DNA of 64,000 bases, taken from positions 248,001 through 312,000 of the forward strand of contig JARGPL010000015.1 of assembly GCA_029210175.1 (NCBI GenBank), given 5' to 3'. Both the position numbers and the translations under genes were made by a program. Position 1 is the first letter of the stretch; every line of letters starts with the position of its first letter. Shown one piece after another: positions 9,176-15,631 of this stretch. The notes beneath the pieces are model-generated. The model made no database searches and had not been told where the DNA came from. It worked only from the letters and a program-made list of their open reading frames with translations. Source of the stretch: Minwuia sp. (lineage in GTDB: Bacteria; Pseudomonadota; Alphaproteobacteria; Minwuiales; Minwuiaceae).

Positions 9176-9644
9176 CACTGATACTGACACCTGCAGCGGC
9201 ATGGGCCGGATAGTGGCAGACGCGCATCTGATGCCGATCCGCGTCTACTGGGAAGACACCGACGCCGGGGCCATCGTCTACTATGCGAATTATCTGAAAT
9301 TCACCGAACGCGCACGCTCCGACATGCTGCGTGTGCTGGGCATCGATCAGCGGGCCATGATGGAGCGTGAATCTGGCGCGATGTTTGCTGTCCGGGATGT
9401 ACAGGCCAGTTATCTGGCCCCGGCGCGTCTTGATGACGATCTTGTCGTCGAAACGCGGCTCACCGAGTTGAAGGGGGCAACGCTGTCCCTGTCGCAGGAT
9501 GTGGTGCGGCAGGGCGACATGCTTGTCAGGACCACGGTCCGCGCGGCATTTATCGGGTTGGACGGACGGCCACGGCGTATTCCGCCGCTGGTCCGTGACC
9601 GGCTGACAGCGTTGACGACACGAGGCGGAGAAGAAAAACAATGA
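9168..9644 (+). CDS. ybgC: Tol-Pal associated acyl-CoA thioesterase YbgC
   Basis: A 158-residue hotdog-fold thioesterase of the 4-hydroxybenzoyl-CoA thioesterase type that habitually opens tol-pal operons. The active-site signature is plain: [20 protein letters not shown], with the catalytic Asp in D-T-D-A-G, followed by [10 protein letters not shown] take ATG 9168 ([13 protein letters not shown]...), which overlaps the ruvB stop by eight bases. The longer frame from 9108 would run far into ruvB. The gene's stop overlaps the tolQ start (ATGA, 9641-9644). The substrate in this organism is not known. In the family, short-chain or phospholipid-linked acyl-CoA or acyl-ACP hydrolysis has been reported. 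Confidence 0.9.
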
Positions 9645-10372
9645 ATCAGGAAGTCATCGCGGCGGGTATCACGGGTTTCGATGCCGCTGATCTGTCCATG
9701 TGGGCGCTGTTCCTGCGCGCGGACATCGTGGTGCAATTGGTGATGGTCGTGCTGCTCGGCGCCTCGATCTGGTGCTGGTCGATCATTTTCGAGAAGTGGG
9801 TCCGTTATCGCCGGGTCTCGCGCCAGGCCGACAGTTTCGAAAAGGAATTCTGGTCGGGTGGTAGTCTGGAAACCCTGTATGACGAGATCGGGGCCAAGGC
9901 GAACCATCCCATGGCTGTGATCTTCTCCGGGGCCATGCGCGAATGGCGACGCACGGCGGAGCGGGGGCTGACGGGCAAGGATCACCTTCGTGCCAGCCTG
10001 CAGGACCGGATCGGTCAGGTCATGCGGATCAGCATCGACCGGGAGATCGAGCGTCTGGAACGTTATCTCGGCGTGCTGGCAACAGTTGGTTCCACGGCCC
10101 CCTTCGTGGGTCTGTTCGGCACCGTCTGGGGCATCATGGACAGTTTCCAGGCGATTGCGGCGACCAAGAACACGTCGCTGGCAGTTGTTGCGCCGGGTAT
10201 TGCGGAAGCGCTCTTCGCCACGGCGCTTGGCCTTGTTGCCGCCATTCCAGCGACCATTGCCTACAACAAGTTCTCCAACGATCTCGGTCGCTACGCCACG
10301 CGCCTGGAAGGGTTTGCGGGTGAATTCTCCGCGATCATGTCGCGGCAGCTGGACGAGGGGGAGAATACCTGA
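9641..10372 (+). CDS. tolQ: Tol-Pal system inner-membrane protein TolQ
   Basis: TolQ is an MotA/ExbB-type proton channel subunit. With TolR it energises TolA to keep the outer membrane constricted at the division site. The 243-residue product has one membrane segment near residues 25-50 (VVQLVMVVLLGASIWCWSIIF), a large cytoplasmic loop, and two further helices around GVLATVGSTAPFVGLFGTVWGIM and GIAEALFATALGLVAAIPATIAYN, the conserved ExbB/TolQ channel core. The start overlaps ybgC by four bases and the stop overlaps tolR by one (TGATG). Confidence 0.95.
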   Translation: MNQEVIAAGITGFDAADLSMWALFLRADIVVQLVMVVLLGASIWCWSIIFEKWVRYRRVSRQADSFEKEFWSGGSLETLYDEIGAKANHPMAVIFSGAMREWRRTAERGLTGKDHLRASLQDRIGQVMRISIDREIERLERYLGVLATVGSTAPFVGLFGTVWGIMDSFQAIAATKNTSLAVVAPGIAEALFATALGLVAAIPATIAYNKFSNDLGRYATRLEGFAGEFSAIMSRQLDEGENT

Positions 10373-10815
10373 TGTCGATCCAGCTTCAGGGGGGCCGGTT
10401 TCAGCGCCGCAAGCGCCACACCCTCATGTCGGAGATCAACGTCACGCCGTTCGTTGACGTCATGCTGGTACTGCTGGTGGTCTTCATGATCGCCGCCCCA
10501 TTGCTGTCCGTTGGTGTACCTGTTGAATTGCCGAAGGCCGTGGCCCCGACACTTCAGGGACTGGATGAGCCGCTGGCCATAACCATCGACAAGGATGGAC
10601 GGATATTCCTGCAGGAAAAGGAAGTCCAGCTGGGTGATCTGGTGCCGAAACTGACCGCCATCACGGACGCGGCACAGGATCGACGCATCTTTGTCCGGGG
10701 TGACCGGACCATCGATTATGGCCGGGTGATGGAAGTCATGGGCACGATCAATGCGGCGGGTTTCACGCGTGTTGCTCTGGTCGCGCAGGCACCGGGGCGC
10801 GTTGACGCAAAGTAA
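10372..10815 (+). CDS. tolR: Tol-Pal system protein TolR (ExbD family)
   Basis: TolR is the single-pass ExbD-like partner of TolQ. Its helix carries the proton-accepting Asp, and its periplasmic domain contacts peptidoglycan. The 147-residue product has LMSEINVTPFVDVMLVLLVVFMIAAPLL, which holds the invariant D-x-M-L-V-L-L motif at the start of the membrane helix, followed by a compact periplasmic domain ending with RVALVAQAPGR. The start ATG at 10372 shares its A with the tolQ stop. A 59-bp gap separates it from tolA, the only real gap in the ruvA-tolB chain. Confidence 0.95.
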   Translation: MSIQLQGGRFQRRKRHTLMSEINVTPFVDVMLVLLVVFMIAAPLLSVGVPVELPKAVAPTLQGLDEPLAITIDKDGRIFLQEKEVQLGDLVPKLTAITDAAQDRRIFVRGDRTIDYGRVMEVMGTINAAGFTRVALVAQAPGRVDAK

Positions 10816-10874: not shown

Positions 10875-11909
10875 GTGATCCGTTCCGTCACAGTGTCGGT
10901 CGTCTTTCACCTCGCCGTTGCAGGCGTGCTGGTGCTCGACCTGCCGTTCTGGAATGACCCCGCCCCGATCATCGCGGAAAACATCGTGACCGTGACGTTC
11001 GAGAACGTCGGGGAGACAACCAACCAGAGAACTGCAGGAACACCTGACGAACCGGTGCCGGATGAGCCGATCAGCGCACCTGATGAGGAGCGCCAGCCAC
11101 CACCGGTCGCAGCACCGCCGCCGCCGCCGCCCGCGCCGTCAACAGATGACGTGGCCGAAGCACCGCCGCCACCGCTGCCGGACCCGGAACCGGTCGCCGA
11201 GCCTCCCGTGCCAGCCCCGCGCCCGACCGTCGAGCTGGAACCGGACGGGACCCTGGCACCGCGCCAGCAGGTGGAGGAGAAGGTTGAGCGGATGGCCCGG
11301 CTGGAGCCGTTGCCCTTGCCCGTGGCCAAGCCGGTCGAGGCACCGAAGCCAGCTCCGCCCCCTGTTCCAAAACCGAGACCGGAGACGATCGCCAAGGCCC
11401 CGGCGGAGGTCGCGAAACCGGTTCCAGAGCCGACACCGAAGCAGGATGAGGAAGCCCTGTTCGATCGTCTTTCTGCCAAGCTGGACCGTCTGAACAAGGA
11501 CAAGCCGAAACCACCGGTGGAGAAGACCGAACGGCGAATATCCGATATCCGCATCGGTGAGGGGGGTGCCGCGCGCAATCGCGTCAGCCAGGTTCTGACC
11601 GTGACCGAACGCGACCTGCTGCGCAGCCACATGGCGCGCAACTGGAGCCCGAACCACGGCGCACCGGGCATTCAGGACATGCGCGCCGATGTGCATCTGT
11701 TCCTGAACCCGGACGGCACACTGGCGCAGGAACCGAAGATCGTGGAGGTTTTTGACGCGGGACAGAACCGCCGCGTCGTGCGGGCGTTCACCGACAGTGC
11801 CGTCCGCGCAGTCTACAAGGCACAGCCATTGCCGATGCCGCCGGCGAAGTTCGAGGAATGGCGCGAGATGGTGTTCACGTTCTCGTTGAAGGAGGTCTAC
11901 GGACAATGA
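10875..11909 (+). CDS. tolA: Cell envelope integrity protein TolA
   Basis: TolA links the TolQR motor to the outer-membrane TolB-Pal complex. The start is GTG at 10875 after an AGG-containing site. The 344-residue product has an N-terminal membrane helix (about residues 4-23), a long Pro/Glu/Lys-rich periplasmic stalk (about 50-215) with runs of PPPPPP and PxPKP, and a C-terminal domain III at about 244-344 (TERDLLRSHMARNW ... DGTLAQEPKIVE ... FTFSLKEVYG). The stop overlaps the next gene, which encodes a lipoprotein with a second copy of this C-terminal domain. The stalk is Pro-rich rather than the Ala/Lys-rich helix of enterobacterial TolA, as is common in alphaproteobacteria. Confidence 0.92.
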   Translation: MIRSVTVSVVFHLAVAGVLVLDLPFWNDPAPIIAENIVTVTFENVGETTNQRTAGTPDEPVPDEPISAPDEERQPPPVAAPPPPPPAPSTDDVAEAPPPPLPDPEPVAEPPVPAPRPTVELEPDGTLAPRQQVEEKVERMARLEPLPLPVAKPVEAPKPAPPPVPKPRPETIAKAPAEVAKPVPEPTPKQDEEALFDRLSAKLDRLNKDKPKPPVEKTERRISDIRIGEGGAARNRVSQVLTVTERDLLRSHMARNWSPNHGAPGIQDMRADVHLFLNPDGTLAQEPKIVEVFDAGQNRRVVRAFTDSAVRAVYKAQPLPMPPAKFEEWREMVFTFSLKEVYGQ

Positions 11910-12343
11910 CCAGGGACCAAGCAAGACAGCCACTGGCCCGTCGGGCAGGACAGGTCACCGGTTTCATCGCAGGCATTATCCTGCTTGCCGGTTGCAGCGC
12001 CATTGGTCCGGGTGGCGCGGAGAAGAAATCCACGCTGTCGCATGAGCAAGCCGTCAAGTCACACGTCACCAGTCACTGGACACCGGATCTCTATTCCGGG
12101 GACCCGGCGGGGATCGTGGTCATGGCGCGGCTGCAATTGAAGCAGGACGGAACCGTTGATGGCGCCCCCGACCTGACTGTCGAAAATGACGGTGGCCAAA
12201 CTGATGCCATAGTTCAGGCGTACGTGGACAGTGTTCGGCTTGCGATCACACGCAGTGAGCCCTTTCCGCTGGCGGCGGATGAACATGCGCTCTGGCGTTT
12301 GATGGAACTGCGTTTCAACCTGAAGGAAGATTCCAGGAAATGA
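11906..12343 (+). CDS. Lipoprotein with a TolA domain III-like fold
   Basis: A 145-residue protein starting at ATG 11906, which overlaps the tolA stop by four bases. It has a signal peptide ending in the lipobox L27-A-G-C30. The mature part is almost entirely a copy of the TolA C-terminal domain. Both share the order helix with H-x-x-x-x-W-x-P, strand with 'DGT', a P-x-hydrophobic strand, a helix with DS-x-R-A, then PFPL/PLPM and a final L-x-F strand ending in LKE. It lacks the TolA membrane helix and stalk. It overlaps tolB by four bases and so is co-translated with the tol-pal genes. It may sit on a membrane leaflet and bind TolB, Pal or colicin-like ligands. The function is inferred only. 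Confidence 0.85.
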
Positions 12344-13683
12344 AGCACTTCAACCCGCTCGGCCCATTGCTGCTCAGTCTCGCGCTCCTGCTTGGCGCGT
12401 TCGTACCGGCACAGGCACAGCTGCGGATCGACATTACCAGCGCGTCGATTGATCCCCTGCCTGTCGCGGTGACCGACCTGCACGGCGAGACCCAGACCAC
12501 ACGGGAACTGGGGCGTGAGATTGCGGAGGTCGTGCGGGGCAACCTTTCGCGTACCAGCATCTTTCGCCTGATCAATCCTGCGGCCTACCTGGAAGGGCCG
12601 GAAGATGTTCTGGTTCGGCCGAACTTCACCAACTGGCGGCCCCTTGACGCGCAGGCACTGGCCACGGGCAGCGTGCGGATCGAAAGCGACGGGCAACTGC
12701 GGACGGAATTCAGGCTGTGGGATGTCTTTGGCGGCAGTCAGCTGACCGGCCTGGTGTTTCGCACCACCCCGGAGAATGCGCGCCGCATCGGCCACATCAT
12801 TTCCGATGCCATCTACAAGCGCCTGACGGGGGAGGAAGGATACTTCGACACGCGGATTGTCTATGTCGCCGAATCCGGCCCGCCGGACCGTCGCGTGAAA
12901 CGCCTGGCGATCATGGACCAGGATTCGGCAAACCACCGTTATCTGACCGATGGCCGCAACCTGGTGCTGACCCCGCGCTTTTCCCCCACGCAGCAGGTCG
13001 TGACCTACATGTCCTATGTGGGCAACCAGCCGCGCGTCTACCTGTACGACATCGACACGGGACAGCAGGAAATCCTGGGCGAGTTCCCGGGCATGACCTA
13101 TGCGCCGCGCTTTGCGCCGGATGGCGAAAAGGTTGTCATCTCCATGGCCCGGAACGGTAATTCCGACATCTATGTCATGGACCTGCGCACCCGGGTGACA
13201 GCCCGCCTGACGCGGCATCTGGCAATCGACACGTCACCCAGCTTCGCCCCGGACGGCGACCGGATGACCTTCAATTCAGACCGTTCCGGCACGCAGCAGA
13301 TCTATACGATGGATGCGGATGGTTCCGACGTGCAGCGGATCAGCTTCGGGGAGGGGCGCTATGCAACCCCCGTATGGTCGCCGCGTGGAGACCTGATCGC
13401 CTTTACCAAGCTGCTGAACCGGCGCTTCTTCATCGGCGTCATTCGACCGGACGGCACTGGTGAACGGATACTGACGGAAAGCTTCCTCGATGAGGGACCG
13501 ACATGGTCACCGAACGGACGGGTGCTGATGTTCTTCCGGCAGGTGCCCGGCGATGACAATGGCCGCGGCGGCTCGGTACGGCTGTGGTCCGTCGATCTGA
13601 CAGGACAGAATCTGCGGGAAATCGATACGCCGATAGATGCCTCGGATCCTGCATGGTCGCCGCTGACGCCGCTGGAGGAATGA
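12340..13683 (+). CDS. tolB: Tol-Pal system periplasmic beta-propeller protein TolB
   Basis: TolB is a periplasmic protein that shuttles between Pal and TolA. The 447-residue product has a signal peptide (about 1-27, ending AQAQ), an N-terminal D1 domain ([28 protein letters not shown]), and a beta-propeller with the repeated blades [31 protein letters not shown], [30 protein letters not shown] and [14 protein letters not shown]. Length is normal. The start overlaps the stop of the TolA-like lipoprotein gene (ATGA). About 200 bp without a gene separate it from pal. That gap contains TTGAAA at about 13812 and a good AAGGAGCTG site before pal. Confidence 0.95.
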
Positions 13684-13880: not shown

Positions 13881-14429
13881 ATGCCTCACGGGTTTCTGAT
13901 CAAGGCTGGCAGCATGGTTGCCGCACTGGTTCTTCTCGCCGCCTGCGCCGACGAGCCGCCGGCAACCGATGCGTCTGACGCCGGTTCGGGTGGCAACACC
14001 CAGGTCGCTGCGCCGGCTCCCGCTCCGGCCCCGGCGCCCAGGGTTGTTGCCACGCCATCCGGCCCGAAGGAAGGTTCTCAGGAACATTTCGTGCTGAACG
14101 TTGGTGACCGCGTCTTCTTCGGTTTTGATCGCCATGACCTGAACTCCGATGCCCAGGCTGTGCTGCGCCGCCAGGCCGCTTACCTGGCCCGTTACCCGTC
14201 CAAGACCGTTGTTGTGGAAGGCCACGCCGATGAGCGCGGCACCCGTGAATACAACCTGGGTCTGGGTGAGCGTCGTGCCAATTCCGCCAAGGAATATCTT
14301 GTCAGCCTCGGTATCGCACCGTCGCGCATCGCCACGATTTCCTATGGCAAGGAACGCCCGGTTGCGTTGAGCCATAACGAGAGCGGTTGGGCGCAGAACC
14401 GTCGTTCGGTTACTGTCATCGCCAACTGA
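13881..14429 (+). CDS. pal: Peptidoglycan-associated lipoprotein Pal
   Basis: Pal is an outer-membrane lipoprotein whose OmpA-like domain binds meso-diaminopimelate peptidoglycan. The 182-residue product has a lipobox L19-A-A-C22, an Ala/Pro-rich linker (APAPAPAPAP), and the OmpA C-terminal domain with VFFGFDRHDLNSDAQAVL, VVVEGHADERGTREYN (the peptidoglycan-binding E-G-H-x-D-x-x-G-T motif), ERRANSAKEYL and a final QNRRSVTV. A strong AAGGAGC ribosome-binding site precedes the ATG at 13881. A long hairpin follows the gene (14481-14514) and probably ends the ruvA-pal transcript. Confidence 0.95.
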   Translation: MPHGFLIKAGSMVAALVLLAACADEPPATDASDAGSGGNTQVAAPAPAPAPAPRVVATPSGPKEGSQEHFVLNVGDRVFFGFDRHDLNSDAQAVLRRQAAYLARYPSKTVVVEGHADERGTREYNLGLGERRANSAKEYLVSLGIAPSRIATISYGKERPVALSHNESGWAQNRRSVTVIAN

Positions 14430-14480
14430 TGCATCGTCAGGTGGCCTGTCACAGGGCCTGTTGACGAGAAATGTTGCACT

Positions 14481-14514
14481 CGCCTGCCGCTGTTCACCGG
14501 AACGGCGGCGGGCG
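14481..14514 (+). terminator. Probable terminator after pal
   Basis: A 15-bp stem with two G-T wobbles, CGCCTGCCGCTGTTC (14481-14495) with GAACGGCGGCGGGCG (14500-14514), encloses an ACCG tetraloop. Only a weak T-rich stretch (ATTTGCGTT) follows. It lies between pal and cpoB, so it may terminate fully or reduce read-through. A second small perfect hairpin, GTCGCA/TGCGAC at 14547-14562, lies closer to cpoB. Confidence 0.65.
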
Positions 14515-14599
14515 ATTTGCGTTCTGGGACCATGAACCGCATTTTCGTCGCATTTCTGCGACAATGAAGGTGAGGTTCCACCCGGTGCGGGAGATTTCG

Positions 14600-15631
14600 A
14601 TGATTGCAGGACACCGTTCAGGACGATTTCTTTCACTGCTGGCCGCGATCGGGATACTGGTTCCGGCTGCCTCGGCTGTCATGGCGCAGGACATTGCGCC
14701 CCTGAATGACCGCGTGCAGCGGCTGGAACGGTCGGTCAATGATCTGAAGGCCCATGTGCTTGGCGGACGCCCCTTGCCGGATGCACCGTCGGGCAGCGCA
14801 TCACCGCCGCCATCGGGCCAGGTGTCGGAGCGGGCCGATGCTGCAGGCCTGACCGTCAAGATCAACGCGCTGGAACAGGAGATGCGGATCCTGACCAACC
14901 GCATCGAGGAATTCGATTTCAAGCTGCGCCGGATCGACAGCCGCATGACCAAGCTGGTGGAGGATGTCGACTTCCGCCTGACATCCATCGAACGCAACAT
15001 GGCAGCCGCGCCGCCGCCCGGTTCCGGCAATGTGGCTGCCAGCGGCAATGGTCAGGCATCGGGTTCGACCCCCCAGGGCACGCGGGTCCTCGGTCAGGTA
15101 ACACCAGAAGACGTGGCGCGTCTGCCGCAGGGCAGTGCCCCGGCCGGTACAGGTGTCACGGTGCAGGAAACCACCGACAACACCCGCGTTGCCGCAGCAA
15201 CCACCGCTCAGACGCCTGCCGCGCCGATCAACCAGGCCGTTCCGTCGGGGGAACCGCGCGACGCCTACATCCAGGCTTTCAGCCTGTTGCAGACCAAGCG
15301 CTTTGCCGAAGCGGAACAGGCATTCACTGCTTTTCTTGCGCAACACCCGGAACATGAACTGGCAGGCAACGCACAATACTGGCTGGGAGAGAGCCACTAT
15401 GTGCGCCAGGACTATGAGGCGGCGGCATCGGCTTTTCTTACCGGGTACCAGAAGTACCGGACCAGCACGAAAGCCCCTGACAACCTGCTGAAGCTCGGCA
15501 TCACTCTGGTCATTCTGGATCAGAAGCCGGATGCCTGTGCGGTCTTCAACGAACTTTCGGATCGCTATCCCACAGCGGCGAGCAGCATCAAGCGCCGCAT
15601 GCAGCGGGAAAAGGACAAGGCGGGCTGCTGA
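14600..15631 (+). CDS. cpoB: Tol-Pal system protein CpoB/YbgF
   Basis: CpoB is a periplasmic TPR protein that couples peptidoglycan synthesis to Tol-Pal constriction. I start it at ATG 14600 (MIAGHRSGRFLSLL), with GGGAG six bases upstream. This gives a clean signal peptide (about 1-30), whereas the longer frame from 14471 would bury it. The 343-residue product has an N-terminal coiled coil (LNDRVQRLERSVNDLKAHV and MRILTNRIEEFDFKLRRID), a Gly/Thr-rich linker, and a C-terminal TPR block with YIQAFSLLQTKRFAEAEQAFTAFL, AQYWLGESHYVRQDYEAAASAFL and YRTSTKAPDNLLKLGITL. It may be transcribed apart from pal because of the hairpin between them. Confidence 0.92.
   Translation: MIAGHRSGRFLSLLAAIGILVPAASAVMAQDIAPLNDRVQRLERSVNDLKAHVLGGRPLPDAPSGSASPPPSGQVSERADAAGLTVKINALEQEMRILTNRIEEFDFKLRRIDSRMTKLVEDVDFRLTSIERNMAAAPPPGSGNVAASGNGQASGSTPQGTRVLGQVTPEDVARLPQGSAPAGTGVTVQETTDNTRVAAATTAQTPAAPINQAVPSGEPRDAYIQAFSLLQTKRFAEAEQAFTAFLAQHPEHELAGNAQYWLGESHYVRQDYEAAASAFLTGYQKYRTSTKAPDNLLKLGITLVILDQKPDACAVFNELSDRYPTAASSIKRRMQREKDKAGC

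Follow-up and report, generated by a model that had tools for sequence, protein, structure and literature searches.

The 64,000-nucleotide stretch of Minwuia sp. DNA analysed here (the window) contains a tol-pal operon in the usual gene order, with one extra gene, which we call X, between tolA and tolB. All features described below lie on the + strand. We take the order to be ybgC-tolQ-tolR-tolA-X-tolB-pal-cpoB; most of these gene names are our own assignments from general knowledge of the operon, and TolB is identified by its PF04052 match. The genes that we presume to be tolQ (9641..10372), tolR (10372..10815), pal (13881..14429) and cpoB/ybgF (14471..15631, ORF as listed) occupy positions that are conserved in relatives. 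The tolA gene (10875..11909) has a GTG start and encodes a proline-rich stalk followed by domain III (TolA III) at 11550-11906. The tolB gene (12340..13683) encodes a protein with the mature N-terminus QLRIDIT. X itself (11906..12343, stop included), delimited by its ORF and by BLAST, encodes a predicted secreted protein of 145 aa that consists of TolA III only.

In the window X is joined to both neighbours by ATGA overlaps, one between the tolA stop and the X start (11906..11909) and one between the X stop and the tolB start (12340..12343). We compared the five operons known to us that contain X. The gene lies between tolA and tolB in each of them, and none of the five reading frames has an internal stop. 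The earlier note on this DNA had proposed translational coupling at both ends of X. This holds up on the tolB side, where the overlap is kept in all five operons, but not on the tolA side, where only two of the five have an overlap and the other three have a spacer of 16-17 nt (counted by eye). The overlapping stop and start codons suggest that X may be translated in step with TolB.

Sequence and fold of X

Pairwise BLASTP aligned residues 33-141 of X with residues 227-340 of the window TolA (E 4e-15, 32% identity). When X was compared with its own genome, TolA III was the sole other strong match (E 4.7e-10), the third match having an E-value of 0.74. Profile-profile comparison of the five X proteins with 11 TolA III domains gave an E-value of 3.3e-23 and a probability of 99.5. 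The TolA-III-like domain spans X residues 43-141 (12032..12328), as judged from BLAST, the structure model and the PDB matches.

Searched by sequence with the X profile, the PDB yielded neither TolA nor TonB chains; the top matches were designed trefoil proteins (E 0.001), picked up via a repeated 15-residue stretch. The window TolA III alone likewise retrieved no TolA chain by sequence, and a broader TolA profile matched 6s3w and 1lr0 weakly (E 0.033 and 0.035). As sequence searches missed or barely found the TolA chains, a fold search was needed. The X model, built from an alignment of two X sequences alone (pLDDT 73.6, pTM 0.69), has the order alpha-beta-beta-alpha-beta. Among 207 Foldseek matches in the PDB the first 12 were TolA or TonB/HasB C-domains, and the best was P. 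aeruginosa TolA III, 1lr0 (E 1.4e-3, probability 1.00, TM 0.54, normalised to the query length); no match in the list had an E-value of 1e-3 or lower. VIA-align superimposed the X model on 1lr0 with Z 10.4 and rmsd 5.1 over 100 aligned positions. The first 21 of its 36 rows were TolA/TonB-type C-domains, with Z from 10.4 to 5.1, and the next was a designed protein at 4.1. A model of the window TolA III, built from two near-identical rows, had a pLDDT of 50.8. The assignment of X to TolA III, which the earlier note had made by eye, is thus borne out by homology and by fold.

X scores below the curated cut-offs of NCBIfam TIGR02794 (12.2 bits, cut-off 59.45) and Pfam TonB_2 (16.8, cut-off 22). 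Together with the PDB sequence search by the X profile, these scores could be read to mean that the likeness to TolA III is due to chance or that the X ORF is not a gene. However, both family models also place the real TolA of the window below cut-off (33.5 for TIGR02794 and 21 for TonB_2), and TolA III shares with X the failure to find a TolA chain in the PDB by sequence. The own-genome match, the profile comparison, the fold match and the tree described below concur in refuting this explanation, to which we assign practically no probability. By sequence comparison, the resemblance of X to TolA III is far above chance.

Positions 11906..11995 encode a predicted type-II (lipoprotein) signal with the lipobox L-A-G-C30 and Ser at +2; on re-reading the sequence, we found the ORF, the coordinates and the lipobox of X as claimed earlier. 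L-A-G-C with Ser at +2 is present in X of the window and of genome G005, that is in two of the five orthologues (signals judged by eye). Under the +2 rule of E. coli, Ser at this position would route a lipoprotein to the outer membrane. The X proteins of G001, G002 and G003 start with what by eye is a Sec-type signal ending in A-A-L-A, with no lipobox. Their mature parts contain no cysteine, and G001 has one inside the signal peptide. The idea of a lipid-anchored copy of the domain is therefore supported for the window protein, but it does not extend to the orthologues in general. We predict that the signal peptide directs export of X in all five species, yielding a lipoprotein in that of the window and in its closest relative, and a soluble protein in the three others.

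The sequences of all five X proteins lack the periplasm-spanning stalk (domain II), and none has a TolA-type inner-membrane helix or, by eye, a His in its hydrophobic stretch, in agreement with the earlier description of the window protein. In TolA, the N-terminal helix carries the motor-contact motif S-H-L-S (PMC12905483). Since stalk and helix are missing in all five proteins and the anchor varies, what they have in common is a free TolA tip with an export signal.

We then compared individual residues, numbered as in the window TolA, with their conservation counted over 51 TolA-type sequences. W257, D280-G281, A312, P318, W329 and F336, which are found in 44 to 51 of the 51, are kept in all five X proteins; W329 and F336 flank beta3. 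All five have lost R311 (51/51 in TolA-type sequences), A309 (47/51) and R303 (42/51), as well as G262 (50/51), a loop residue whose alignment is less certain. Helix 2, in turn, contains conserved residues specific to X. At the pair of positions on the C-terminal helix, at least one residue is hydrophobic in 45 of the 51 TolA-type sequences and both are in 43 (some rows being cut short), whereas X has Asp/Glu-Ser in all five cases and a hydrophobic residue in none. In the window, the corresponding tail K-E-D-S-R-K (12323..12340) aligns with K-E-V-Y-G-Q of TolA. Loss of the hydrophobic pair may open the binding groove, may mean another ligand, or may in part be a consequence of the tolB start region lying over the end of X. 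The loss of near-universal TolA residues, as seen in the alignment, warns against assuming that X makes the same TolB/Pal contact.

Distribution, origin and selection

The order was sampled with nine genomes of one family and three genera. X is present in five of them, all belonging to the window's genus (five of its seven genomes), so that the extra gene is found in tol-pal operons other than that of the window. The two genomes of the genus that lack X, G004 and G006, have tolA directly before tolB. TolA was found three times in G004, on contigs C4, C15 and C37 with the same score, probably through assembly duplication.

Of 385 genomes drawn from the class, at least 224 contain a match to the X profile at E <=0.01, counted among the matches listed. 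Three genomes among these listed matches reach 1e-60, all of the window's genus, and the others score like TolA. In a sample of 142 class genomes, a TolA-III match was found in 128 and a TolB_N match in 134; both lie within 4 kb on one strand in 111 genomes, with a median gap of 114 nt, and 16 genomes have both unlinked. Two TolA tips before TolB were detected in two of the 111, G000 and G003, both from the window's genus. The absence of X outside the genus refers to this sampled 142-genome comparison, and tandem tips were searched within the class. A different insertion was seen in G108 (L079:1640-2530), where a Fic/Doc-family gene (PF02661, E 1e-8) unrelated to X and a small upstream ORF lie between tolA and tolB, in a gap of 1078 nt.

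To place X among its relatives, we used a tree of 56 domain-III sequences, five from X and 51 TolA-type. Fifteen of the latter come from tol operons whose gene order was determined, that of the window among them; of the remaining 36, 32 have tolB in the same locus. All five X sequences group together (100/100), and jointly with the nine TolAs of their own family they take one side of a branch (100/99.6); these values come from a bootstrap that, by the program's warning, had not settled. The stem branch of X is long, with 2.03 changes per column. As to the duplication point, a subclade or the genus versus the family, the alternatives received AU p-values of 0.17 and 0.20. As X groups in the tree with TolA of the same family, sequence, fold and tree together show that it is a paralogue of TolA III that has diverged, retaining the globular tip but neither the motor anchor nor the stalk. 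A cysteine pair (R/K/Q-C-W ... C-x-P) found in five of six TolA III from other families (one alignment) is absent from all nine TolA III of the window's family and also from X, in line with an origin within the family. A mobile origin was rejected, as tblastn gave no plasmid match and PHROGs one chance-level match (E 0.24), and so was a defence origin, PADLOC returning 0 families.

Selection was estimated from the four species pairs with unsaturated synonymous change; six other pairs had dS >1.1 and were not used. The omega of X was 0.30, 0.28, 0.26 and 0.24, with bootstrap upper limits of 0.52, 0.55, 0.50 and 0.45. For TolA III, the same four pairs gave 0.035, 0.14, 0.13 and 0.006, so that the X value is 2 to 40 times higher. 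These results indicate that X is maintained under purifying selection, weaker than that on TolA III, and that it does not evolve neutrally.

Synonymous change is lowest in the last codons of X, over the tolB start region (P 0.03). A 21-nt stretch, CAAACTGAYGCCAYAGTTCAG (12197..12217), is nearly invariant among the five X genes, even at synonymous sites; G003 has one further base difference, and P is 0.012-0.15 depending on the window size of the calculation. An internal tolB promoter within X was considered and rejected, as the search, which covered sigma-70-type sites only, found none at 11800-12450. An RNA hairpin was likewise rejected, with unremarkable z values of -0.91 at the 21-nt stretch and 0.62 at the tolB start region.

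The weaker constraint, the low synonymous change at the tolB start and the unconserved type of anchor are all features expected if X were what is left of a tandem duplication under relaxed constraint, retained chiefly because tolB translation depends on it. We consider such a relic improbable. The upper limits of omega lie at 0.45-0.55 in the four pairs, both kinds of signal peptide look intact, and five of five proteins retain the residues W257, D280-G281, A312, P318, W329 and F336 in frames free of stops.

Comparison with known systems

X resembles the TolA III of its family in sequence, fold, operon and position in the tree. It differs in having a signal peptide and neither inner-membrane helix nor stalk, and in the loss of R311 and the C-terminal hydrophobic pair. 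We know of no TolA III homology in CpoB. CpoB/YbgF is a Tol-Pal accessory whose anchoring varies, like that of X: of 70 Proteobacteria, 20% have a form predicted to be a lipoprotein and the others do not (PMC12204202). Unlike X, it is widespread. VreA of the PUMA3 signalling system of P. aeruginosa is, as X, a natural and predicted periplasmic protein with a C-domain modelled as TolA/TonB-like, but it also has an N-terminal receptor-signalling domain and belongs to a sigma-factor system rather than to tol-pal (PMC2729926).

Two ORFs within the class are similarly stalkless, with a start that by eye is signal-peptide-like and one TolA/TonB-type C-domain. The first (L077:2984-3469, G047) encodes 161 aa with a lone TolA-III-like domain that matches the TolA profile at E 4.5e-20 and has no Pfam match; its neighbours we take to be ABC transporter genes. 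The second (L083:766-1122, G144) encodes about 115 aa with a lone TonB_2-type C-domain. In contrast to X, both belong to other families of the class and to other neighbourhoods, outside tol operons. A 2025 survey of force transducers describes the operon organisation as conserved, typically with a single tolA (PMC12204202). In the literature searched, which covered few subscription papers, we found no description of a tol-pal operon with a second TolA tip. A free TolA/TonB-type C-domain has precedents in VreA and the two stalkless ORFs.

Possible roles of a motor-free TolA tip

TolA III binds the TolB N-terminus by parallel strand augmentation, with the C-terminal helix displaced (PMC7066135, PMC7391070). 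As described in PMC7391070, this hold on the disordered TolB N-terminus is weak, with a Kd of about 40-200 uM; the motor then pulls TolB off Pal, and for TolA III itself there is dispute over whether it contacts Pal. All five species with X have the mature TolB sequence QLRIDIT, by comparison the TolA-binding strand. Relatives without X have an N-terminal strand of the same kind, which does not track X.

X may occupy, by beta-strand augmentation, the TolB N-terminal strand normally gripped by TolA III; what it occupies would be this strand or another TolA-III ligand. Lacking a motor, it could grip TolB but could not transmit a pulling force. By capping, parking or competing for TolB, it would tune the amount of TolB that energised TolA pulls off Pal. 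Without the hydrophobic pair on the C-terminal helix, the groove of X is predicted to be less self-covered.

A laboratory construct offers a comparison. In E. coli, co-expression of TolAIII with a signal sequence increased the release of periplasmic protein to the medium (PMC6195910). The same source calls TolAIII a pore, and in its experiments the periplasmic protein escaped even without TolAIII when expression was high, and a cytoplasmic marker leaked too. The construct (pTA3Y, rbp-tolAIII) is a secreted free TolA tip with the same architecture as the soluble X (PMC6195910). It was engineered and overproduced, whereas X is a natural, diverged protein encoded within the tol-pal operon, and in two species it is a predicted lipoprotein. 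As X has this architecture in a form that is diverged and tied to TolB synthesis, we tentatively favour a role on the TolB side, in which X, a TolA tip without a motor and probably synthesised together with TolB, would act as a competitor or cap. The TolA-III homology, the fold, the branch shared with family TolA (100/99.6), the X/tolB overlap in five of five operons and an omega below 1 are consistent with such a role. Against it, the loss of R311 and G262 and the replacement of the C-terminal pair mean that TolB binding of the TolA kind may be gone, the change in the tail could partly come from the overlapping tolB start region, and X is absent from four of the nine genomes of the order.

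The main rival, followed by the coupling relic considered above and then by a decoy, is that X has acquired a new envelope partner (CpoB, Pal, TolA itself or an outer-membrane protein) and acts as a Tol-Pal accessory rather than as a TolB competitor. The stem of 2.03 that precedes the X family, the loss of R311, G262, A309 and R303 in all five proteins and the X-specific residues conserved in helix 2 speak for such a change of partner. Set against this are the stop/start overlap with tolB in every X operon and the retention in five of five of W329 and F336 around beta3, which would be expected if a TolB-type ligand were still bound. We regard a new partner as possible but rather unlikely.

X could also be a decoy that soaks up phage coat or bacteriocin domains entering via TolA III. 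Free TolAIII reportedly caused detergent sensitivity and colicin tolerance (Levengood-Freyermuth, 1993), and we count the tolerance in favour of a decoy. We know of no parasite of these bacteria, which counts against it. Strand addition is how phage g3p and colicin A attach to TolA III (PMC7391070), and X evolves faster than TolA III. However, its whole-gene omega is below 1, with no sign of positive selection over the gene as a whole, PADLOC found 0 families, and the tolB overlap fits a TolB role better. A decoy function is very improbable in our judgement.

Returning to the TolB-side role, a more specific and more speculative version, which as a whole we think unlikely, would make X a domesticated TolB-coupled antagonist that holds the TolB N-terminus in a groove left open by the lost helix residues and so sets the Tol pull on Pal during division, free in the periplasm or at the outer membrane depending on the species. 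Little is understood as yet about the activation of the Tol system (PMC12905483). As a free TolA tip that occurs in nature and is linked to TolB production, X would offer a ready tool for probing the TolA-TolB contact and a candidate natural regulator of it; it would also show how a force transducer yields a paralogue that is unable to transmit force.
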